64,000 bases of DNA, from positions 87,258,620 to 87,322,619 of the forward strand of contig NC_073313.1 of the NCBI RefSeq assembly GCF_027595985.1, given 5' to 3'. Origin of the DNA: Sorex araneus. Taxonomy: Eukaryota; Chordata; Mammalia; Eulipotyphla; Soricidae. The number at the start of each line of letters is the position of its first letter. The stretch's first letter is position 1. Positions 4,344 through 58,774 of this stretch are shown here, piece by piece. Under the pieces are notes generated by a model, which ran no database searches, was not told where the DNA came from, and saw only the letters and a program-made list of their open reading frames with translations. The translations under genes and the position numbers were made by a program.

Positions 4344-4457
4344 TCTATGGACTGCAGTACCTAGGACTGAGTGATGGACCTCATCACTCACATATTGAGC
4401 ATGTGATTGGAACCCTGTGCTGGGGCACAGGCATTTCTGGCTATTGTGAAGTGTATC

Positions 4458-4706
4458 CCTGTATCACTGTATCACTGTCATCCCCGTTGTTCATCAATTT
4501 GCTCGAGCAGGAACCAGTAACGTCTCCTTTGTGAGACTTGGCGTTACTGTTTTTGGCATATCGAATACACCACGGGGAGCTTGCCAGTCTCTGCTGTGCA
4601 GGCGGGATACTCTCCGTAGCTTGCCGGGCTCTCCAAGAGTGGCAGAGGAATCGAACCCGGGTCGACCGCGTGCAAGGCAAATGCCCTACCCACTGTGCTA
4701 TGGCTT
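4458..4706 (-). mobile_element. Shrew type 2 SINE (same tRNA head, different body)
   Basis: In reverse orientation it starts with CACTGT-type repeats, then 'catcaatttgctcgagcagg', 'gttactgtttttggcatatc', 'ggtagcttgccgggctctcc' and a conserved tRNA-like head with 'gaatcgaacccgggtcg'. Apart from the head it has nothing in common with the type 1 body. Confidence 0.85.
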
Positions 4707-7578: not shown

Positions 7579-9930
7579 GTTTGGCTTTTTAAAGCTTAAC
7601 TGTATGTCGTAGATAGCATTCTATATTTACACATTTATGCCTACTTCCTTTAAAAGAAATCCCTGCATAGCATGCCATACTATGATTGTACTATAATTTG
7701 GTTAACCAGTCCTCTGCTGGTGGGCACGTAGGGTACTTTCAGTTTTGCCTTATTACAAACAATGCTGCTATTCCCTGCCTTTGTGCATGTGTGCAAGAAC
7801 ATCTCATAAACTAAGCAAAATGATGGTTTTCTAGAGTGGGAAGGAGAGGGGTAAAGTTTCCGATGACCAACAGAGAATTTCCCCAAACCTTAACGTGACA
7901 GTGAATCCATCTGGCATGTGTCCATTCCGGAGGCTGACAACTGCTGTGCTTGAGGATGTTGGCAGTTCCATTAAGCTCTGGGGGTTTGAGATACTCCAAC
8001 TTAGCCAGGGTTATATCACATGACCAGAATTGCCTCTCTGGTCTGCTAACTACTGGGTCTACATTCTGCCTCAGCCAACAATTAGGTTCCACAAAAATAA
8101 AAGAGCCTCAGGCCGTCTTTATTTTTGGAAAACCATGTATTGTTTTGATTAAAGATGTTTTCACTTAATGCTTCCCAGTACATGCCACCCCTGCACAATA
8201 GATATGATGGAACCAAGAAGTAAAAGATCTCTTCTCTAGCAGTAGAGGTGGCAATGAATCCATTTTCATCTAAAAAGCTAAAAGAGTAAGTAACTCAGAC
8301 AAGATTTGTAGAGCTAAAATAGTAGCCTAACCAAAAAAAAAAACCTATATGACTGGAGAATATATACAGAATCCGCTTTTTCAGATTGACAGCTCTTTGG
8401 GTGCAAATAGACTAGGGACATTGGAGCAGGGTAGGGTGGCACTATTAGTTCCATGTCAAAACTACTTGTTTAGGCCGAACCCACCCACTGTAAAAACAGG
8501 TATGTTGATCCTCTTGGCTGTGCCTGCCCCTCCCCTGCCTCAACCCTGGCCCCCCACCCGAATGGAGGCACATGCCAAGAACCGCCCTCCCCTGCCGCTG
8601 TCCCCAGAGCGCTGAACCTACCCACTCCTCCAACAGGTGTATGGACCCCCTAACATTGCCTCCCTGCATCTACCCATCACTGCATACCTTATATATCTCT
8701 AACCACAAAACCATGCAGACACTAAGCATCCACACAAAGAAGTTTCTGTGTCTGCACCCCACATATTGGGCACTAGTTAACCCAGACCCCATATATCTTT
8801 ATGCATAAATAAGCCACTGTAACACACAAAAGATAGATCCATTGCAGGGGCACAAAGTACAATAACATGGGAAAAACTCCAATATGCAAAGGTCACGATG
8901 GTAAAACAACACAGAAACCCACCAGGCTTAATGATTGAAGTTGCTAGCCCAGATAAATCAAACAGTAATATTCAACTATATAACCTTTCTGATAAGGAAT
9001 TAAAAATGGAGCTTTTAAAATTTTAATTTAACTAAGAAGCTCAGAGAAGCAATGGAACATACTACTGTTAAAACACAAGAGGATAGGAGAGCAAAAGTGA
9101 GGAAAATGCAAATAAAAATATAAGCAGAAATAAAACACTTGGTACGTAAAATGAAAAACTCAGTGGCCTCAGCAACAGGGTAACAGCTGCTGAGGACAGA
9201 ATCAGTGAGCTCCAAGATGAGGTGCAGAGAATATCCAGACAACAGTAGAAAATGGAAAAAAAGCCTCAAAATAAACCAGATGTCAAGAGAAAATCAGGAT
9301 GAAGCCAAGAGGAATAACATAAGAATCATTGAAGTTCCAGAGGGACAGGAAGAAAACCCCAGTGAAGAAGAAACTGTCAAAGACATAATTGCTAAGACAT
9401 TCCAAGAGCTGAAGAGCACATGTGACCAGATTTAGGATGCCTGAAGTGTACCAGTTAAAAGAAATCCAAATAAAAATACTCCAAGATACATACCGATCAG
9501 AATGACAAAAACCATAGACACAGATAAAATTCTGAAAGCAGCAAGATCTAAGAAAGAAATTGCCTATAAAGGAGCATCCTTAAGATTTACAGCCGACTTA
9601 TCTGATGAAACCCTCAGGGCCCGAAAACAGTGGTGGGATATAGTGAAAAAAACTCAATGAAATAAACACCTCACCAAAAATACTTTAACCAACTAGACTC
9701 TCATTCATATCAGAAGGAAAAACAGAGTTTCACAAACAACAACTCAGGAGCTTCATAGACCCAAAACCATGGTTATGAGAACAAGTAAATGGGCTACTTT
9801 AAGACAGGAAAAGCCCCTCAAATACACCAAACTGTGGCAGAAAGATTGGACAAAACCCCATAACAATAATCTCTCTCAATGTCAGTGGGCTAAATGTACC
9901 AATTAAAAGAGATGGAATTAAACCATCCTC

Positions 9931-13181: not shown

Positions 13182-13422
13182 GGACTGGAGTGATAGCACA
13201 GCGGGTAGGGCATTTGCCTTGCATGCGGCCGACCTGGGTTCGATTTCTCTGTTCCTCTCAGAGAGCCCTGAAAGCTACCAAGAGTATCTAGCCCCCATGG
13301 CAGAGCCTGGCAAGCTACCCGTGGAGTATTCGATATGCTAAAAACAGTAACAACAAGTCTCACAATGGAGATGTTACTGGTGCCCGCTCAAGCAAACCAA
13401 TGAACAAGGGACAACAGTGGAT
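13182..13422 (+). mobile_element. Type 2 SINE inserted in the L1
   Basis: This is the clearest sense copy in the window. Box A 'tagcacagcgggtaggg', box B 'gggttcgatttc', body 'gcaagctacccgtggagtattcg', end 'ctcacaatggagatgttactgg'. The related L1 at 19316 lacks it, so its limits can be read from the empty paralogous site near 19385. Confidence 0.9.
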
Positions 13423-14664: not shown

Positions 14665-14871
14665 AGTCATTGTCACTCTCTTCCCATTGTCCATCGATTT
14701 GCTCGAGCGGGCACTAGTAATATCTCCATTGTGAGACTTGTTGTTACTGGTTTTGGCATATCGAATACGCCATGGGTAGCTTGCCAGGCTTTGCCATGCG
14801 GGCTAGATACAGTTGGTAGCTTGCTGGGCTCTCTGAGAGGGCCAGAGGAATAGAACTCAGGTCGGCTGCAT
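14665..14871 (-). mobile_element. Type 2 SINE, head truncated
   Basis: It runs from 'gtccatcgatttgctcgagcgggc' to 'aatagaactcaggtcggctgcat', where the head breaks off. It sits directly behind the L1 A-rich tail. Confidence 0.82.
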
Positions 14872-31081: not shown

Positions 31082-31340
31082 TTCACTGTATCATTGTATC
31101 TCTGTCATTCTGTTGTTCATCGATTTGCTTAAGTGGGCACCAGTAACATCTCCATTTGTTCCTGTCGCATGCTAGTGTAGCCTGATAGCATATTTGGGGC
31201 TCTTTCAGGATCAGGGGAATGAAGACCGTCGTTGTTACTGTTTCTGGCATATTAAGTACATCATGGGTAGTTTGCCAGGCTCTACTGTGCAGGTGGGATA
31301 ATCTCAGTAGCTTGCCAGGCTCTCTGAGAGGGACAGAAGC
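31082..31340 (-). mobile_element. Type 2 SINE, long subfamily
   Basis: In place of the short 'cattgtgagacttg' link of other type 2 copies, it has an extra segment (about 31158-31218) with 'ggggctctttcaggatcagggg'. The same feature is seen at 43815. The tRNA-like head is lost. Confidence 0.75.
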
Positions 31341-31468
31341 TTTGGGGGAGGCCTCTAATCACCTTTACAGGTGTTCCCAGTCTACCGAATATAAGCTTTT
31401 GGTCACTGGCATGTTGTAATGATCTGTACACTGACAAACACGAACCTGCCTGCATCTCTGGGCAGCAC

Positions 31469-31672
31469 CTGGGACATCTGTGGCCTCAGGTTGATCTCCT
31501 TGAGGTTGATGGAGTGCGCCTAGAGATTATTGAGCAGCTGGCAGAGCAGGACCCTATCGAGGAGGGTCTGTGCCAGGTCGAACACCTGTGCCGAGTCCCA
31601 GGTCACCCAGTGGTTGGCTGACAGCACCCCACAGTGGATGAGCCACTGTGCGCACTGCCGCCATGGCTCTAT
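31469..31672 (-). pseudogene. VAV3P: VAV3 exon 1 pseudogene (genomic copy)
   Basis: The minus strand encodes 68 codons matching the start of VAV3, a Rho/Rac guanine-nucleotide exchange factor, at the N-terminal part of its calponin-homology domain. Recognisable runs are 'CAQWLIHC', '[19 protein letters not shown]', 'LCQLLNNL' and 'AHSINLKEINLRPQMSQ'. The initiator ATG has become ATA (31670-31672), and a TAG stands at 31520-31522 after LLNNL. Beyond the last codon comes GTGCTG, a splice-donor-like sequence, and no exon 2 text. The copy therefore carries intron DNA and is not a processed cDNA copy. VAV1 and VAV2 fit less well than VAV3. The 'P' symbol is my label, not an established name. Confidence 0.85.
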
Positions 31673-32520
31673 GTCTGATGGCACTGTGACTCGGTCCAGC
31701 CGGGGCAGGCGGTGACACTGCGGCCACCGCTGTGGTTTCTCTGTGCCCTGCCGACACCATTCTGTCCAAATCTTGCAAAACAGCCAGTGATGTCCATCAG
31801 GAATCACGTGTAGAGTTCCAGCAGATGTCATGCGTAGAGTTCCATGCCTGGCGTTCAGAGCTGTGCATTGTCTAAGGTGAGATGGTGAGTTGGTTTCAGG
31901 AGAGTGAGAAGGGTTCAGGCAGTGTAGGTGCCACCTTGCCTCCAATCAAATATGGTGTGGTAATTATGGAAAATGAGTAGGTAGTGTCTTATGATGTGTT
32001 ATGCAGCCACAAAATCAGCCATGCAGTTTAGGAATATGTTCACTCATATGTGAAGCTCAGCCTGAGTGTATGGAAAGCAGCCTGGAGCGTGGCAGCGGTT
32101 GTGTTGTAAAGGTTGGCTGCCGGGGCTGTGTCCCGTGGGACAGGGAGGGCTCTCACCCATCGCACTCTGAGGCGCCCTGAGTGAAAAAAGCCTGGCGCAG
32201 AGTCCGGTGGCATGATTATGGGGGCCTCATTTTATGCTCCCTTCTGGGAGAAGCAGCCATGAGTTCTGGATGGTGGCCGATGAGGAGATTATCTGGCGCT
32301 GGCAGGAGGTGGCTTATGGGCGTGATCCCTGGGCACAACGAAGACTGGGGGAAGCAGACAGAGGATCTCTGCTCCTGGGTCCTGTTGAGCCCAGAGTCCA
32401 AGGTCACAAAGTTCCGTATTACCTGAATTCTGTGGGACTTCACTCATATGAGGTCAGATTAGTCCTTCCTAACCTTAGCAGGGTCCTTATTCAGTCTTTT
32501 CTCTTTTGATCATAGCATAA
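31673..32520 (-). other. Possible upstream part of the VAV3-derived duplication
   Basis: GC-rich DNA continues upstream of the VAV3 exon copy (31673-31790 and 32090-32450), as expected for a 5' UTR and promoter carried along. I cannot confirm homology by eye, and the outer limits of the duplicated block are unknown. Confidence 0.35.
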
Positions 32521-36699: not shown

Positions 36700-36780
36700 A
36701 TCATCACTGTATAACTATCATCCTGTTGCTCATTGATTTGCTTGAGTGGGCACTAGTAACGTTTCCATTCATCTCTATAT
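36700..36780 (-). mobile_element. Type 2 SINE, distal end only
   Basis: 'catcctgttgctcattgatttgcttgagtgggcac' is the distal part of the type 2 body in reverse. Confidence 0.7.
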
Positions 36781-37122
36781 CATAGACCTAAAAAATAAAA
36801 ATACAAAATTATTGGAAGTAAAGATAGATTCTTTTGTAAGAAGTCATTGATTCTCAGTGATGACACTGGAATAATATGCACCCAAACCAAGGCACCAAAA
36901 ACACAGTACAACCAGAGACTTGATAGACAAATTGGTCTGTATCAGAATTTTTTTTTAAAGATCCTTTTTTGCACTAAAGGATACTGTTGCAGAAGTCAAG
37001 AGTCCTCACACAGAACAGGAGAGAATATAAATCATATATCTGATAAGGGTCTAGAATTCTACAATATAAAATAATACTTATAGTTCAACAATGAAAAGAC
37101 AACTTAAGTAAAAAGGGCAACT

Positions 37123-42533: not shown

Positions 42534-42786
42534 CTGTGACTGTCACTGTCACTGTCATCCCATTGCTCATCGATTTGCTCGAGCGGGCACTAGTAATGTC
42601 TTCATTGTGAGACTTGTTGTTACTGTTTTTGGCATACTGAATACGCCACAGGTAGCTTGCCAGGCTCTGCATGCCAGTGAGATATTCTCTGTAGCTTGCC
42701 AGGCTCTCTGAGAGGGGCAGAGGAATTGAATCTGGGTCGGCTGCATGCAAGGTGAATGCCCTACCCGCTGCGCTATCTCTCCAGCT
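42534..42786 (-). mobile_element. Type 2 SINE, full length, reverse
   Basis: Opens with (TGTCAC)n at 42536-42557, then the complete body and a head ending 'gcgctatctctccagc'. The flanks 'aaaccactgtgact' (just before) and 'aaatcactgtaact' (just after, 42788-42801) look like a slightly diverged target-site duplication. Confidence 0.9.

Positions 42787-43657: not shown

Positions 43658-43711
<54 letters not shown>
43658..43711 (+). repeat. (ATC)n microsatellite
   Basis: About 17 near-perfect ATC units. It corresponds to the simple-repeat end of the reversed type 2 SINE that follows. Confidence 0.95.
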
Positions 43712-43712
<1 letters not shown>

Positions 43713-44420
43713 CATTGGTTGTAGAATTTCTTGAGCGGTCTCAGTAACGACTCCATTCGTCCTAGCCCTGAGATTTTAGAAGCCTCTCTCTACTCGTCCT
43801 TCCCAATGATGCCACATTGGAGGCTCTTTCAGGGTCAGGGGAATGAGACCCAGCTTGTTACTGGTTTGGGCATATTAATACACCATGGGGGCTTTGCGAG
43901 GTTCTCCCAGGTGGGCAGGAAACTCTCGGTAGCTTGCCAGTTTCTCCCAGAGGGAGAACTAGGCTATAAGATGTCTTCTAGGAGCTTGCTTTTAAGTCTC
44001 TGGATGCTGGCTGTTGATGGGAATTACACGGTTGGGGGGGGGGCAGTCCCTGGATGTGACCGCCTAGCTACTGGGAAATGGGAAATCTGGGCGGAGGAGG
44101 CCCAGTCTCAATCTGAGGAGGCCCAGTCCCAATACGAGCAGTCTTGGAGGTCTCAGCCCCGGGTCCCACAAACCTGGATTCCTCTGTCGGTACCTTCATG
44201 CGTGAGGCTCGTCCGAACGTGTGGAGAGGGGCTTGAGCATGGCTGTGGCTAGGCTCTGGAGGTCTTCGGCTGCCGGGAGCTCTGCTTGGGGCGGGAAGGG
44301 AAGCTGGAGCCCATCCCCTCTGAGGGGCCCCAGGGAAGACAGCCAGGCGTGTGGGCAAGAGACTCTCTGTGTCGCTCTCTCCTGGGAGATCAAGATTATC
44401 CCTCTCATATTGACCTGGTA
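43712..44420 (-). mobile_element. Composite element: long type 2 SINE body plus GC-rich module
   Basis: 43712-43960 is a long-subfamily type 2 SINE body ('ggaggctctttcagggtcagggg', 'ggtagcttgccagtttctccc'). In place of the tRNA-like head, the sequence runs into a GC-rich block to about 44400. This block contains a tandem 'gaggaggcccagtcycaat' (44094-44112 and 44115-44133). Whether the GC block belongs to the element is uncertain. Confidence 0.5.
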
Positions 44421-49500: not shown

Positions 49501-49741
49501 ATTTCACGAGTTTACTTACCTTTCGATGTGTAAGATTTATACACCTCCAGATGTACGTGATTCTTAGCACTATCAAAGTTCCCCTGCCATGCCATGCCAT
49601 TCCCAAAATGACTCCTTAACTCATTTTCTCCCACCTTTCCCCTTTCCCTACACTTAAACAATAGTTTCACCTGACTTGGTGTTTTGTTGGGTTATTTTGC
49701 CAGGTTATTTGTTCTAGTTATTCAAGGATTTTTTTTTTTGT

Positions 49742-50125
49742 TTAGCATCAAAAAAAATCGAAAGAGCTATATTAGGAGTATCACATCTCACTCAAGTGAG
49801 AGAAGGAATCCGGAGTTCTGGCCTCCGTCGACAGTCAAGAATCAGGGATGCTATATCGTTTGCCAAGGCATCAAAAATCAGATGGGCTGGTCATGTAATG
49901 CAATTCAGAGACGACCACTGGACTAGAGCTGTTACCGACTGGATTCCACAGGATGTCAGAAGACCGCGTGGCCGACCACCAAGTAGATGGTCAGACTTCT
50001 TCGTCAAATCCCTGAATGAATGATTTGAGGCTCTTCTTGTTCCTGGAGCAAGCAAATATCGTTGGACTATACTAGTACGCGACAGAGACAAATGGAGACG
50101 TTACTAGACTATCTTGCAGGCTCAT
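49742..50125 (+). mobile_element. RTE-type LINE, 3' end, resembling nematode RTEs
   Basis: A nearly open frame from about 49745 to 50104 encodes the C-terminal tail of an RTE-clade reverse transcriptase. Readable motifs are 'IERAILGVSHLTQVREGIR', 'SKIRWAGHVMQF', 'WTRAVTDWIPQDVRRPRGRP', 'PSRWSDFFVKSLNE' and 'RDRDKWRRY' before a stop at 50105-50107. One internal TGA (50021-50023) stands where the family usually has Arg, consistent with CGA to TGA decay. The copy is 5'-truncated, losing endonuclease and RT. The motif set is typical of nematode RTEs rather than BovB. From memory, an RTE of this kind (RTE1_Sar) was reported in Sorex araneus as a horizontal transfer involving parasitic nematodes (Dunemann and Wasmuth, Mobile DNA 2019). 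Confidence 0.88.
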
Positions 50126-50309
50126 CCACTTTATTTTATATTTAGCATATTGGAAAGTATAACTCTAAACACTTAGCAAATAGGCCACCCATATTTCCAT
50201 AGTAAATGTGTAAGTAATATGAATACTTCTATTAACTTAGTCATGGGAGCACTCCTGGAGGCTCACAGGGTTGCTCAATCAGGAGCTGAATTTGCGTCAT
50301 ATTTCCTCA

Positions 50310-52503: not shown

Positions 52504-52570
52504 ATGAATCTGTGGCGGTGCTTGCAGGCGCTGCTGCTGCTCTGGCTCTCTCTGACCGCCGTGTGTGGAG
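52504..52570 (+). CDS. APLN: APLN coding exon 1: preproapelin signal peptide
   Basis: Apelin is the secreted peptide ligand of the G-protein-coupled receptor APLNR (APJ), acting in heart, vessels, angiogenesis and fluid balance. This exon encodes residues 1-22 plus the first base of Gly23: a short N region (MNLWRC), a Leu-rich hydrophobic core and a cleavage-type end (TAVCG). It is followed immediately by donor GTGAGT at 52571. Human preproapelin begins almost identically (MNLRLCVQ against MNLWRCLQ). The ATG lies inside the CpG island, is followed at once by the hydrophobic signal core, and the phase-1 splice joins in frame to exon 2. Joined coding length is 231 nt including the stop, a 76-residue precursor. 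Confidence 0.96.
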
Positions 52571-52842
52571 GTGAGTGCGCGCCCCCCGGCTCGTCCGCCC
52601 CGTCGCTGGCCGCTCGCCGCCTCCCAGGGAGCCGCCACGCGCCGGGCTGCCGGCCGACGGGGCGTCCCGGGGGCCCGGTTTCGGGGCCGAGCTGGTGGCG
52701 GGGTGGCGGGGTCTGGCAGAGCGTGTGGGGGGGAACCGCTTGCTCCGGGAGGGCATCCCTCGCCCGACGCCTGTCGGGTCTGGGCACTCCTCTCGCAGTC
52801 TGAGGAAGCGGGCGCTCCCCGCAGGTTCCGCGGCCCGCGCCC

Positions 52843-52848
52843 CACGTG
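52843..52848 (+). promoter_or_regulatory. CACGTG E-box / hypoxia-type site in APLN intron 1
   Basis: The palindrome CACGTG contains the HIF core ACGTG and lies 273 bp into intron 1, inside the CpG island. From memory, a functional hypoxia-response element has been mapped to the first intron of human APLN, so the location is suggestive. Orthology has not been aligned. Confidence 0.45.
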
Positions 52849-54481
52849 GTGCAAGGAGCCCCGCTCCGTCCCCCTCGTGGGTCAACGCAGGGGACTGGCC
52901 AGGACCCCCCCCCCGGCTGGCCTTGAAGATCTACTGGCCCTGGGAAGTGAGGAGCCGCCTGGCCCCTTTCGGGGTTCGCCCAGCCACTGGGGCCGCTGGA
53001 ACCAAGTTGCAGACGTGACACTTGTTGCATAGGAGGGAGCGCGTGGCGGCGGCATGGAGACCAGCTGTTGATCCTTAGCGCCCCTTCAGTGAGCAGAGGC
53101 AGGGGGCCAGGTTCTGTCTGCTGTGCTCTGTGCTCTGTGCTCTGGACTCCCGTGCCCAAGATCCTCCTCTCAGCCTCCCCCTTCCCTCTGGCTTAGTTCC
53201 TGGATGTTCTGGCTCGAGGCACACTCCCCTTCCCCCCACCCAGGCTGGGCACGCTGCATCTCACCCTCATCTCCAAACCACAAAGCAAGGCAAGCAAGGC
53301 AGGACCCGACACCCCCCTGCCAGCACCACACCTTCCACCTGGCAATCCTTGGCACCAGGTGCTCTCTGGCCCTCCCCATCCCGATCCCCACCCAGTTCCT
53401 GTGTGCCCTCACTTGCTTCCTGGGGCAGTTGGCACAGTCCTGTGATCTGGCTGTCACTGCAGCCTTACCTGGCATCACCAAGGGCGACCGGGAGGGCTAA
53501 TACCAGAGTGGGGGAAGGAGAGACCGAGAAAGTGTTTCCTCTCTGCTCGAGGAAGAGCACAGGGTTCTATTTGGTTCTGACCTGTCGGGACAGGACCATC
53601 CTTGGCAGTACAGAAGCTTCCTGAGGGACCAAGCCAGGTCTCAGTTCCCTGTCATCAGCTACCTTCTTTCTCAATGCTGTTGCCTTTGGTCCTGCCCTGG
53701 AAGGTGCCCTGCTTGGGTCCGGTACCACCTGCTTACCTGAGGCCCAAGGAGTCAACCTCCACCTTGGAAAGAGGTGGACAGGGTTTTTCCCCCCCAGACA
53801 CTCTTGTCTGGCAAGCTATGTTGGAAGAGAGCAAGGAAGATGATTGAAAGACTCCACAGGGGCCTGACCCTGGGGTCCTACCCTGTGGTGAGGGGAACAA
53901 GACACACCCACATGGCAGGTCTGTGGGCTTCAGTCCAAGACGGCGCCTTCGGGGAGGAAAGAGTGGGTGTAGTGAGGGCCTCTCAGAGGAAGATGGGGCT
54001 TCCTGGTTGGCATACTTGGTGCTACCCTAAAGTTATAGAGAGACCCTTGGCCTTCTGTCACCCCCGCTCTGACTGTTTTAAAGTCCAGCTGTTGGGGCTG
54101 TATCGGTAAGAGGGAAAGCTGGTTTCCAGGGAGAGGGAACACTGTGTCTGACCCAGATCCTGTTGTGTCTTTAATCCCCCTGTCAGCCTTAGTCTGACTT
54201 CATCCCTGATTTGGGTCATTTCCACAGCCCTCCCACTGGGCTGCAAATACTAGAAACTACCAAGGCACCCCTTACCTTCTGCACCTGGCAACCACACCCA
54301 CCATGTTCTACTCCTCCTGCCAGCTCTCCTGGGTCAGGAAACAGGAGCCCAGAACCACTTTGCCCTTGACTCAGACTTACATGTTCCCCCCAGCAGAGTT
54401 CCTAGGTTCCCGGGCTTCAGCCCCATGTTTCCTCCCAACACACTTTATCTCCACTTGGAATATTCTTCACCCCCCCAAGCC

Positions 54482-54484
<3 letters not shown>

Positions 54485-54528
<44 letters not shown>
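54485..54528 (+). repeat. (CA)n microsatellite
   Basis: About 21 uninterrupted CA units in APLN intron 1. Confidence 0.97.
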
Positions 54529-54531
<3 letters not shown>

Positions 54532-54619
54532 TGCCTCTGACCTGGAATACACTTTGCTCTTCTGAGTCTGAGAGCTACTGGGTCAGAGCCAAGTATCCCT
54601 TAAGGTTTGTCTGAGTACC

Positions 54620-54728
54620 TCTCCCTCCCTTCCTCCCTTCCTCCCTTTCTCCCTCCCTTCCTCCCTTTCTCCCTCCCTCCCTCCCTTCCTCCCTTCCTCC
54701 CTCCCTCCCTCCCTCCCTCCCTCCCTCC
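54620..54728 (+). repeat. Pyrimidine tract (CCCT/CCTT)n
   Basis: About 109 bp of pure C/T, mixing CCCT and CCTT units. It lies about 90 bp beyond the CA repeat. Confidence 0.96.
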
Positions 54729-55074
54729 AGCAACAGTCACATCTATATTGGTAATGTGAGGACAGCCTACTGTACCCCTCCCTTTCAGAAAAGGCCTCCT
54801 CCACTTCAACCCCAATCCCTTAATGCTGAGTACCCATGTAACCTGAGTCAAGCCTCTTGGCAGCCAAGGACTGTAGGCCAGTGCAGTGCTGGCCCAGGCT
54901 GCCAAAGCCTGTTGTGTCCGAGCAAAGGCTGGCATGGGGACACCACTCAGGGCACTGGGGTGAAAGGCTGGGAAGCCAAAAGCTGGCTACTTCATTCCAG
55001 AAACAGGACACCTCAGAGTTGAGGAGGGGACCTAGCTAGTGGGGGCCCCCACCCAGAGCATGCCAGTGGGCTTT

Positions 55075-55205
55075 TAATTTTATTTTTTAAACTATTTTAT
55101 TGAATAAATGTGAGATAGACCCGTACAAAGCTGTGCATGATTGGATTTCAGTCATACAGTGTTCCAACAACCATCCCTCCACCAGAGTACATTTCCCAGT
55201 AAGTC
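55075..55205 (-). mobile_element. L1-like 3' end, reverse
   Basis: 'ttattgaataaatgtgagatag', 'cagtcatacagtgttccaac' and 'catccctccaccagagtacattt' mirror the shrew L1 3' UTR in reverse orientation. Confidence 0.72.
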
Positions 55206-55539
55206 CCAGGACAGGCCAGACAGCTAGCATGGCTGGTTCCAGGGGAGGCGGGCATGTTCCTGAAAAGTGGCTCTGGACATTGGAGCCACGTTTGTGGTTG
55301 GGGCTGTGGGAGAATCAAGCTCCATTTCTCTGCTGGTGCCTGATGTGTTCTCCAAGCGCTCCGCAGCATCGAGCTCCAGGCCCTGCAGGGATTCTTGGCA
55401 GAAAGATGCCTCAACTTCCTTTTCAGTGAAAAGAGTTGAAAAGAAGTACTTTAACAATTGGAAGAGGCCCTCATTTCTACCTGGGATTTTTTTTGGGGGG
55501 GAGGGGTTATAGTCCGCCTTCTGTGGGGATGAGACCTGT

Positions 55540-55709
55540 ACTTTTGCTTTTTGGGTCACACCTGGAAATGCACAGGGGTTACTTCTGGCTCTGCACTCAG
55601 GAATTACCCCTGGAGGTGCTCAGGGGACCATATGGGATGCTGGGAATTGAACCTGGGTTGGCTGCATGCAAGGCAAACGCCCTACCCGCTATGCTATTGC
55701 TCCAGCCCC
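55540..55709 (-). mobile_element. Type 1 SINE with target-site duplication in APLN intron 1
   Basis: A complete reversed copy, flanked by 'gagacctgt' at 55531-55539 and 55710-55718. Its tail 'cttttgctttttgggtcacacc' and head 'ctattgctccagcccc' are intact. Confidence 0.94.
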
Positions 55710-56452
55710 GAGACCTGTGTTTCTAAGGTGGCCCTTTGGACAGATCAAGCTGTGTTTTCAGGTGTCAGCTTATCGGAGGGGTGAGCCAGACTCAAAAGGA
55801 GGCAACAGGTGGGGGGCGAGATCAGAATGCAGAAGGAAGACTGAATCCACTCGGAGGGATGCAAGATGCCAGGGGTTCTCCTGGGCCGGCTGCTCTCTAG
55901 GGCTCAGCTGAGTGCTTGGGGCAGTTCCTGGCAGGCCCACAGCCTCTTGTTTCCCTGGCCAGCATCTGAGTTATGGTCCTGTTTCCCCCACTGGCTCTAG
56001 GCCTACACTCCTACCCTTCACCCCCAGCCAGCCCTCCCTTGGCACAGCTGCCTGTACCCCCAGTCTTGGGCGGTGAGCATTTGATGATACGCTCTCCACC
56101 CGGCCCTTTGCCTCGCTTCTCCATGTCTCATGTAACCCTGGTGTTGCTGCCTGCACCACTGCCTCACCCCCAGCAGTTGGAAGAAGCAAGACCTCCTTCC
56201 CCTTTTCAAGGCCCCTGGCATCTTCCCTAGCATCCCACCCTTTCAGCAGAGTCCAGCAGAGTCCTTAAGACCTGATACCGACTCCTCAACTGTCTCATGC
56301 CTATTGAGCAGGCACAGCCTAGGGGCACCCCAGAGCACAGGGCTTTGTGAATGAAGCTTCTCTCTGCCCAGTCCCTTTGCAGATGGTCCCCAAGGGTAGC
56401 CTCCACTCCTTTTCTCTGTGTATTCCCACTGCTCCAAGCACACAAATGGAAG

Positions 56453-56575
56453 GCCAGGGAGATGGCTGAAGGGACTGAAGCATATAATCTGCATGTGGGA
56501 GCCCTGGGTCTGGACCCCAGGTACCACATGGTCCCCTGAGCACTGCTGGGAGTGATACCCCTCCTTAGCATCACC
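56453..56575 (+). mobile_element. Type 1 SINE, old copy
   Basis: 'ccagggagatggctgaaggg', 'gggtctggaccccaggtacc', 'gtcccctgagcactgctggg'. Confidence 0.65.
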
Positions 56576-56878
56576 GGCCTGCGCATAGCTCAGGGTGCCA
56601 TTGGGGGAATGCCTTCTTAAAAGAAAGGTCTTCAAAGTGAAAATGTCCTTCGTGTTTAAATTCCTATTAGGTGATGGCTGGAAAGGGTGAGTGGGAGGAG
56701 GGACTGTGTACACATGCATTGTGGGATGTCCTTTGGTGGAGGGGAGGGTGTGGGAGTGGGTAGGAAGGAACCTAAGAACCAACCTGCCTACCTGCCTGCC
56801 TTTGGTCCTGGAGGAGAAGAAATACCTAGGAACTATGTGCAAGTGAGCAGGAATGACCAGAGTCAAGGAGGGAACAAG

Positions 56879-57034
56879 AGGGGCTGGAGCAATACATTTG
56901 CCTTGCATGTGGCTGAGCCAGGTTCAATCCCTGGCATCCCATAGAGTTCCCTGGGCACCACCAGGAATAGATCCTGAGTACAGAGCCAGAAGTAACTCCC
57001 CTTGAGAATCCCCAGGTGTGCCATCACCCAAAAG
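56879..57034 (+). mobile_element. Type 1 SINE
   Basis: 'aggggctggagcaata' is followed by a deletion of most of box A. Box B 'aggttcaatccctggcatccc' and body are well kept, but the loss in box A makes it unlikely to be transcribed. Confidence 0.83.
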
Positions 57035-57967
57035 GTGGAATCAAGGACGGGGGAATAATGGAGTCAGGGAGATGGCAAAGGAGAACCCCCCCCACCGGAA
57101 GATGGTGTGGGGAGGCAGGCCACCAGCCAACAGTGGGGATGATATGGAAACTGTGAGCTAGAAGTGGTGGTGGGATTGCTGGAGGAATGGAGGCAGAGCT
57201 CGAGAATAGGGATGGAGCTGAAGGCCAGTCTGCTGGAGGGGGAGTCGGGGGATGGCAGAGAAACCAGAAGTCCAGGCACTGGCCTCCGAATCTACTACTA
57301 CAAGCCAGCCCCATGCTGGGAGTTACACAGCATGCCCCGCCTACCTCTCCCTCAGTGAGAGCTCATCCACACAGGCACCTTCTCTGTCCTTATGACTAAG
57401 AGCATCCAGCACCACTTCGATTCTGTTGAAGCTGCAGCGTCACAAGGCATTTACACTAAACCAGATGTGGATAGATGTATCAAGGAGCCCCTGAACTCTT
57501 CTACTCTCAGTCAGATGTGAGCAGATAGATGCTAAACATGCCTCCCCTGCTGCCACCATCCCTATGTAAAAGAAGCTAGCTAGGGTTGGAAAGGACCCAG
57601 GAAGTGGCCTTGGCGATGCCAATACTCAGGTTCCTCAGCCTCCAGAATAGAATGTGGCTTCCGGGGACCATTCCGCCATTTGCGCACTCACTCATTAATG
57701 CAGTCTTTATTGGACACTCCCTGTGGTATCAGGCTGAGGAGAACTGGGTGTAAGGTACGTGGAATCAGAGACCTCCTCCCCAAGCCCTGCCCCACCCACA
57801 GGGAGGCCACATGAGCAAAGTAGGAGATGCCTAAACACCAATGAGATGCCCAGGGGAGACATCTGGCACACTCAAAAATGGGCCACCTGTGTCTCAGAAG
57901 ACTGTAGGAGGATTGTGACAGGGAGCACAAAGTTTGCTCTTACAATGCTTCAGAGAAAGGAAAAAAG

Positions 57968-58137
57968 AGAGGCTGGAGAGATAGTGCATTGCTTTGCATG
58001 CGGCCAACCCTAGTTTGAATCCTGATACCATACAGGGTTCCCTGAAGTACATCCAGGGGTGACCCCTGAGCGCAGAGCCAGGAGTAAATCCTGAGCACTG
58101 CCAGGTGTGGCCTCAAACGGCTCCAAAGGAAAAAGAA
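57968..58137 (+). mobile_element. Type 1 SINE close to the exon 2 acceptor
   Basis: 'gaggctggagagatagtgca', box B region 'agtttgaatcctgatacc' and 'gagcactgccaggtgtggcc'. It ends about 470 bp before coding exon 2. Confidence 0.85.
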
Positions 58138-58610
58138 AAGGGACAACTAAGGCTTTTGCCACTCTCTGTGGATAACTGATGGGTGCATGGCATTGTGTCA
58201 TTCACTTCGTTGGAATGTGTGTGAAATGTGTTCATCAGTTTCAAGGGTGATATGGGGGTGTGGGTTGTCCCTGCTGTGCCCTAGTCAAGTATGGGCATAA
58301 TGTCTCAATTTTTTACCCCCTCACATTGTTGTGTTTGTGCCTGCCAGAAATGTGGGGGCACTGTCAGGTATTTGAATCCCAGAAGCGCAGCTAACCAACT
58401 ACTTACATTGCAAGATGAGTACTGAGTCCTCTTTGTCCCACGACAGTGACAGACTGGCAAGTGATTCCGCAGGAGGGAAGCTAAAACCAAAGAAAGGCTG
58501 TGCCTTTCACTCTGCCTCACGCAAGGATTGCCTCTCCCAGGGGTCTGTGCTCTGTGACCTATGTCCACGGGCACCACCTTCCTATCTAACTGGACTGATC
58601 CTTTCTGCAG

Positions 58611-58774
58611 GACCTCTGATGCAGCCTTCTGGCCGGAAAGGGTTGCAGGAAGGCAACGTCCGCGCAGCACAGCCCCGAGGGTCGAAGAACGGACCAGGGC
58701 CCTGGCAGGGAGCTCGGAGGAAGTTCCGTCGCCAGCGGCCACGCCTCTCCCATAAGGGCCCCATGCCTTTCTGA
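58611..58774 (+). CDS. APLN: APLN coding exon 2: apelin prohormone and mature peptides
   Basis: The exon opens after 'tttctgcag', completes Gly23, encodes residues 24-76 and stops at TGA 58772-58774. The C-terminal active peptide, apelin-13 (QRPRLSHKGPMPF), is identical to the human form and is preceded by the basic cluster ARRKFRR that defines apelin-17 and its processing. The spacer between signal peptide and apelin-36 is poorly conserved: compared with recalled human sequence it has lost acidic residues (for example GRKGLQEG where human has DGNGLEDG). One residue is missing just before the apelin-36 region, giving 76 rather than 77 residues. Apelin-36 starts AAQPRG here, LVQPRG in human. 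The reading frame is intact, so the gene looks functional. Confidence 0.97.

Follow-up and report, generated by a model that had tools for sequence, protein, structure and literature searches.

A short, damaged piece of an RTE-type retrotransposon lies close to APLN in the genome of the shrew Sorex araneus, which raises the question of where its family came from and what else in this genome that family may have moved. The original prediction had singled out this piece as a fragment of a probably horizontally acquired element. Here we follow it from its own locus, i.e. a continuous stretch of 64,000 nucleotides (87.26-87.32 Mb of a 374-Mb contig) referred to below as the window, to its relatives in the whole genome assembly (2.41 Gb in 65 contigs), to the SINEs that end in a related tail, and to a composite element that contains the first exon of a host gene. 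The coordinates of all features discussed are collected in table 1.

Table 1. Features of the 64-kb window; positions are counted from its first nucleotide.
Feature	Position	Strand	Remark
SINE copy with RTE-derived tail	4456-4701	-	same tRNA-like head as 13185-13419
SINE with tRNA-like head and RTE-derived tail	13185-13419	+	head judged by eye
SINE copy with RTE-derived tail	14673-14871	-	
Full-length copy of the 862-nt composite retrotransposon	31083-31943	-	
RTE-derived 3' tail of composite	31083-31182	-	
VAV3 exon 1-derived part of composite	31467-31730	-	shares 85% identity with the genome's VAV3 exon; ends at splice donor
Leader of composite	31743-31943	-	
Isolated RTE-type tail	36703-36783	-	
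SINE copy with RTE-derived tail	42549-42784	-	same tRNA-like head as 13185-13419
Longer related SINE	43690-43990	-	RTE-like tail variant with terminal (GAT)n, by eye
TTTAGCAT, left half of target-site-duplication-like repeat	49741-49748	+	
RTE-family LINE fragment, C-terminal end of ORF	49757-50107	+	truncated at 5' and 3' ends
In-frame TGA	50021-50023	+	same in 16 of 29 aligned relatives
In-frame TAG (second stop)	50105-50107	+	27 of 29 relatives have G as the middle base (TGG)
Non-RTE sequence (33 nt) where the family has its terminal tail	50108-50140	+	
TTTAGCAT, right half of target-site-duplication-like repeat	50141-50148	+	
APLN (context)	52504-58774	+	start codon near 52504; apelin C-terminus 58733-58771

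Results

Identity and state of the fragment upstream of APLN

The C-terminal RTE motifs quoted in the original prediction all lie in one reading frame (49748-50104), and the start codon and apelin C-terminus of APLN bear out its placement of this gene about 2.4 kb downstream of the fragment. APLN is X-linked in mammals, and its location on a contig of 374 Mb is in keeping with the fused X of S. araneus. Within the interval that had been assigned to the fragment (49742-50125), an RTE-type LINE is indeed present, but it is confined to 49757-50107 and truncated at both ends, with an incomplete 3' end. Upstream, the homology to the family, as seen in alignments to relatives, stops at an A-run before position 49757, and the 5' limit is ambiguous within this run (49749-49756).

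Instead of the single stop codon that had been noticed, the frame contains two. The TGA is not a private lesion of the window copy, since it is the commonest codon at this position among the relatives, with CGA found in eight of the 29. The impression of few lesions holds in so far as the window copy differs from the consensus of these relatives by 23 substitutions over 350 sites and by no indel (K2P 0.070), but the copy is farther from this consensus than each of the 29 relatives, for which K2P ranges from 0.029 to 0.064 with a mean of 0.048, a comparison biased towards low values because the relatives were the best of 40 listed, had been picked by similarity to the window copy and themselves formed the consensus.

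The fragment itself falls short of the reverse transcriptase domain: its 93-aa piece gave no Pfam hits and its peptide no matches in the PDB up to an E value of 1, and an Rfam scan of the window gave none at the gathering score. The open frame of one relative (locus L027; 407 aa), which continues through the region of the fragment, matches the Pfam domain RVT_1 (2.9e-17) as well as PDB structures of the R2 and LINE-1 reverse transcriptases. These matches support the view that the fragment comes from a non-LTR LINE, one whose features are of RTE type. Its assignment to the RTE clade rests on the motifs and the tail, RVT_1 being indicative of a LINE and not of RTE in particular.

An abundant RTE family with a tandem-repeat tail

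A DNA search of the shrew's own genome with the fragment yielded 7,882 first-look candidates, and all 40 that were scored matched; the 39 matches other than the window copy are 90-92% identical to it, most of them over window positions 49756-50105. A 30-mer from the coding part occurs at 9,377 places in the genome at two mismatches or fewer, with none for the reversed control. Copies of the family are truncated at variable 5' positions, and the consensus of the relatives ends in AAGTGATACAAGTGA, i.e. in a short tandem repeat and not in poly(A), with the tail present in all 29. Given such a high copy number, along with the location of the fragment on a chromosome-scale contig that carries APLN, the RTE is not a stray contaminant. 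Outside this genome, relatives were sought in a viral contig collection, where a protein search gave seven pattern stretches, none of them confirmed, and a DNA pattern gave none; there were likewise none among other genome contigs or among phage records. One locus of the family (L069) contains two RTE 3' ends in tandem (L069:3569-3779 and L069:3951-4545), the first of which is 79-83% identical, over as much as 211 nt, to the 3' ends found at five further RTE loci.

An aberrant 3' end flanked by an 8-bp repeat

Downstream, the homology of the fragment to its family ends at 50107, whereas all 29 relatives go on for about 50 nt into the terminal tail. Aligned to the family tail, the window copy scores 7, as against a shuffled 95% level of 10 and scores of 28-48 for the 29 relatives. 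The 33 nt that stand in place of this tail were considered as an alternative family tail, which was rejected since in the genome the segment 50106-50260 matches itself alone, with no second place. On either side of the fragment and these 33 nt lies the octamer TTTAGCAT, and these two occurrences are the only ones on the + strand of the window.

From the sequence, we take the fragment to have inserted with its 3' end already aberrant. Its 5' truncation and the flanking 8-bp repeat are observed, and the process behind them would be target-primed reverse transcription, in which the family tail was perhaps lost via a chimeric RNA template or a template switch of the reverse transcriptase, leaving the 33 foreign bases behind. 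Switching to other RNAs has been reported in LINEs, those of RTE type included, according to the available portions of PMC4476161. A later deletion is a live rival, to which we give somewhat less than an even chance: an ordinary, tailed RTE insertion would subsequently have lost its tail together with the right flank, and the 8-bp repeat would be a coincidence. The presence of the tail in every one of the 29 relatives fits such a history, and so does the finding that an equal or longer match arises in 86 of 5000 random placements. That the repeat directly adjoins the 5' breakpoint, and that the octamer is so rare on this strand of the 64 kb, speaks for the aberrant insertion instead.

SINEs that end in an RTE-derived tail

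When the fragment was compared with the window by BLAST, a match was found at 31142-31180 on the minus strand (85% identity), within the terminal part of a repeat in which the final 100 nt represent an RTE tail. Related tails are located at 4456-4530, 13364-13419, 14673-14730, 36703-36783 and 42549-42606, and four of them terminate a SINE with a common tRNA-like head. The longer, related SINE with its (GAT)n ending suggests that there is more than one type of RTE tail in the shrew genome. In the window, there are 24 places with the SINE head, four of them in the RTE-tailed copies of table 1, which means that most copies of the head are without this RTE tail and that this SINE moves also without it. 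Genome-wide, a 22-mer from the SINE body is found at 173,099 places at one mismatch or fewer, and a 37-mer joining the SINE body to the RTE tail at 68,852 places at two mismatches or fewer, with zero counts for the reversed controls of both.

Shrews possess a tRNA-type SINE termed Sor. Its head may be identical to the one observed in the window; Sor is treated in PMC7279448 and PMC8466645, the available passages of which give no Sor sequence. The combination of a tRNA-type head with the tail of an RTE LINE is also the arrangement of Bov-tA with BovB and of other RTE-SINE pairs in Table 1 of PMC3747384, as far as the accessible rows go; the difference is that the LINE partner in the shrew very probably is the one reported to have been horizontally transferred. 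No pair from Sorex appears in the mammalian SINE/LINE rows of that table in its accessible form.

A composite retrotransposon containing VAV3 exon 1

A genome search with the repeat at 31083-31345 gave 9,001 first-look candidates; 40 of these were scored, and every one matched. Many of the best 30 copies, including that in the window, align far upstream of this interval, and once this was seen the possibility of a plain SINE was rejected. These 30 copies, i.e. the best of 40 listed and picked by similarity to the window copy, constitute the sample used below, and a consensus of 862 nt was built from 19 of them. It consists of a leader, VAV3 exon 1 up to its splice donor, a middle block, a SINE body and the RTE tail, in this order. 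The leader consensus holds a two-unit 24-nt repeat (GGAACTCTACGCGTGAT...) and begins with GGAGGCAAGATGGCG, which we take to resemble the 5' end of L1, so an origin of the leader from there is possible.

In one frame, the consensus reads as the start of a Vav protein. This frame matches the Pfam domains CH (9.9e-07) and CAMSAP_CH (2.3e-12), and in the PDB the best of three matches is Vav-3 (E 7.4e-39), followed by two chains that bear the name proto-oncogene vav. Searching the genome at the protein level gave 2,791 candidates, and all 150 that were scored matched. The best is an open exon with 96% identity (C8:57892325-57892528, matched to residue 68), which we take to be the VAV3 gene, and the remaining 149, among them the window copy, show 76-87% identity. 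Homology between gene and composite consensus begins about 57 nt before the ATG and ends in all eight longer composite loci at positions 1703-1707 of L075, the locus of the gene exon. There, exon 1 ends with CAG at 1704 and is followed by GTAAGG, and the composite goes on with an unrelated block. Since the VAV3 part is cut off exactly where the gene has its splice donor, it points to a spliced RNA as the form in which it was captured. The idea that a functional peptide is translated from the VAV3 ATG was rejected, the consensus having ATA for ATG and the window copy an in-frame TAG; with ATA as its start codon, the reading frame of VAV3 is probably just carried along.

Some copies of the composite, including the one in the window, continue upstream into a second shared repeat (31944 to at least 32014 on the minus strand); this long form accounts for eight of the 30 copies. 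Part of this upstream sequence recurs in the RTE locus L010, 66-258 nt past the RTE match, with 85% identity over 193 nt.

Copy number, mobility and age of the composite

A 30-mer across the VAV3 junction occurs at 1,065 places in the genome (control 0). A leader 30-mer occurs at 527 places and a middle-block 30-mer at 1,536, so that counts rise from leader via junction to middle block as 5' truncation predicts, a gradient that is confounded by the CpG content of the patterns, with the leader pattern having the most CpG. As a divergence of 11.2% would, under a simple model, let about a third of all copies match the junction 30-mer, we estimate about 3,000 copies (roughly 3,200) in the genome.

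In the sampled copies, the 5' ends are truncated at varied points and the 3' ends of all 30 lead into RTE-like GTGATACA repeats. A flanking repeat of 7 bp or longer was found for eight of 22 copies, as compared to 22 of 462 mismatched flank pairs, and 14 of the 22 are without such a repeat. This test left out the eight of 30 copies in which the upstream sequence is the shared long form, and the 22 include one locus (L032) that is a neighbouring SINE and not a composite.

Between the composite and the RTE consensus from 29 copies, 87 of 96 tail positions are identical. The mean divergence of the sampled composite copies, L032 again being counted among them, is K2P 0.112 (0.065 at non-CpG sites), and that of the sampled RTE copies is 0.048 (0.027). 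At an assumed 2.2-4 x 10^-9 substitutions per site per year, these values correspond to about 16-30 million years for the composite and 7-12 million years for the RTE, where the selection by similarity biases both samples and the rates lack a calibration in shrews.

Discussion

The published case of a shrew RTE shared with parasitic nematodes, to which the original prediction referred, does exist in the literature and was described correctly there. According to the available portions of PMC6542046, RTE1_Sar is found in nine species of parasitic nematodes besides S. araneus, with the shrew consensus closest to that of Heligmosomoides polygyrus (80.1% identity). Like RTE1_Sar as described there, the family in the window is an RTE-type LINE that is abundant in the shrew genome, and it very probably is RTE1_Sar, with the name and the transfer resting on that paper in its available portions. 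The window fragment then is an ordinary, doubly truncated, dead copy of what very probably is the published element. Could it instead be a vertically inherited mammalian RTE, i.e. BovB or another vertebrate RTE, without any horizontal transfer? We consider this very improbable, even if the same portions of PMC6542046 state that confidence in the location of the RTE1_Sar clade is low and that landscapes and copy ages gave no confirmation of the direction of transfer. They also report no significant hits in reads from hedgehog, solenodon and mole and an occurrence in one mammal only among those searched, which, together with the closeness to a nematode consensus, argues against vertical descent; so does the youth of the copies sampled here (mean K2P 0.048 for 29 copies chosen for similarity).

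If other SINE/LINE pairs are a guide, an RTE reverse transcriptase should recognize the RTE terminal tail, and there are two non-autonomous passengers that carry such a tail, the very abundant SINE and the VAV3 composite. The latter would have arisen by splicing of VAV3 exon 1 to a block further downstream that ends in a SINE body and an RTE tail, and it is most likely that the RTE lineage copied both SINE and composite in trans. For the movement of the composite, target-primed reverse transcription by an RTE of the fragment's lineage is the best-supported reading, where with tails identical at 87 of 96 positions, and with no RTE subfamily identified that has the exact variant of the composite, the engine may be a sister RTE. 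It is unlikely that the composite was mobilized by L1 or represents a dispersed segmental repeat, with the RTE tail being a passive relic of the SINE contained in it. Such a history would be compatible with the spread of the SINE head also without a tail, and with a leader start that resembles the 5' end of L1. Yet the 3' ends run into RTE-like repeats and not into poly(A), 5' truncation combined with flanking repeats indicates individual retrotransposition, and the junction matches, among those listed, are spread over each of the contigs C1 to C12. On the whole, we are fairly confident that a dead, RTE1_Sar-like fragment lies upstream of APLN and that the RTE lineage copied both the RTE-tailed SINE and the VAV3 composite. 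The further proposition that a retrotransposon derived from worms became the copying engine for a shrew SINE and for an SVA-like element with a VAV3 exon, at some three thousand sites, seems to us evenly balanced between right and wrong.

The SVA family of retrotransposons is made up of an Alu-like part, a VNTR, a SINE-R and a poly(A) tail, and a variant in hominids carries a spliced-in first exon of MAST2. The shrew composite probably is an SVA-like, exon-capturing retrotransposon moved by the RTE lineage. Like SVA, it is a non-autonomous composite with a spliced host first exon—here joined at the splice donor to a retrotransposed 3' part—a SINE-derived part and a LINE-compatible 3' end, and it exhibits hallmarks of LINE-driven movement, i.e. 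target-site repeats well above the mismatched pairs and variable 5' ends. It appears not to be a member of the SVA family itself, since its 862 nt end in an RTE tail that follows a shrew SINE body. Moreover, the gene concerned is VAV3, the tail is of RTE type instead of poly(A), the host belongs to a different order of mammals, and no VNTR is seen beyond the two-unit repeat of the leader.

The VAV3 composite with its RTE tail is the notable part of these findings, and the fragment adds one locus to a published case. In the open-licence papers searched, VAV3 does not appear with Sorex, nor is there a paper linking VAV3, a retrotransposon and the shrew; the accessible parts of this literature that deal with shrew SINEs or with composites describe neither an RTE-tailed shrew SINE nor such a composite. 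The main text of PMC6542046, in its available portions, contains no word beginning with 'SINE' and no VAV3. Repbase or Dfam may already have entries for the SINE, and even for the composite.

If our reading is correct, the role of a LINE gained by horizontal transfer went beyond its own multiplication: it provided a tail for 3' recognition both to an abundant SINE and to a composite that spreads an exon of a host gene along with its splice donor. With the composite copies about twice as diverged as those of the RTE (0.065 versus 0.027 at non-CpG sites), the passengers may provide an independent and older clock, which may date the arrival of the RTE in the shrew, a point left unsettled by the published landscape in the available portions of PMC6542046.
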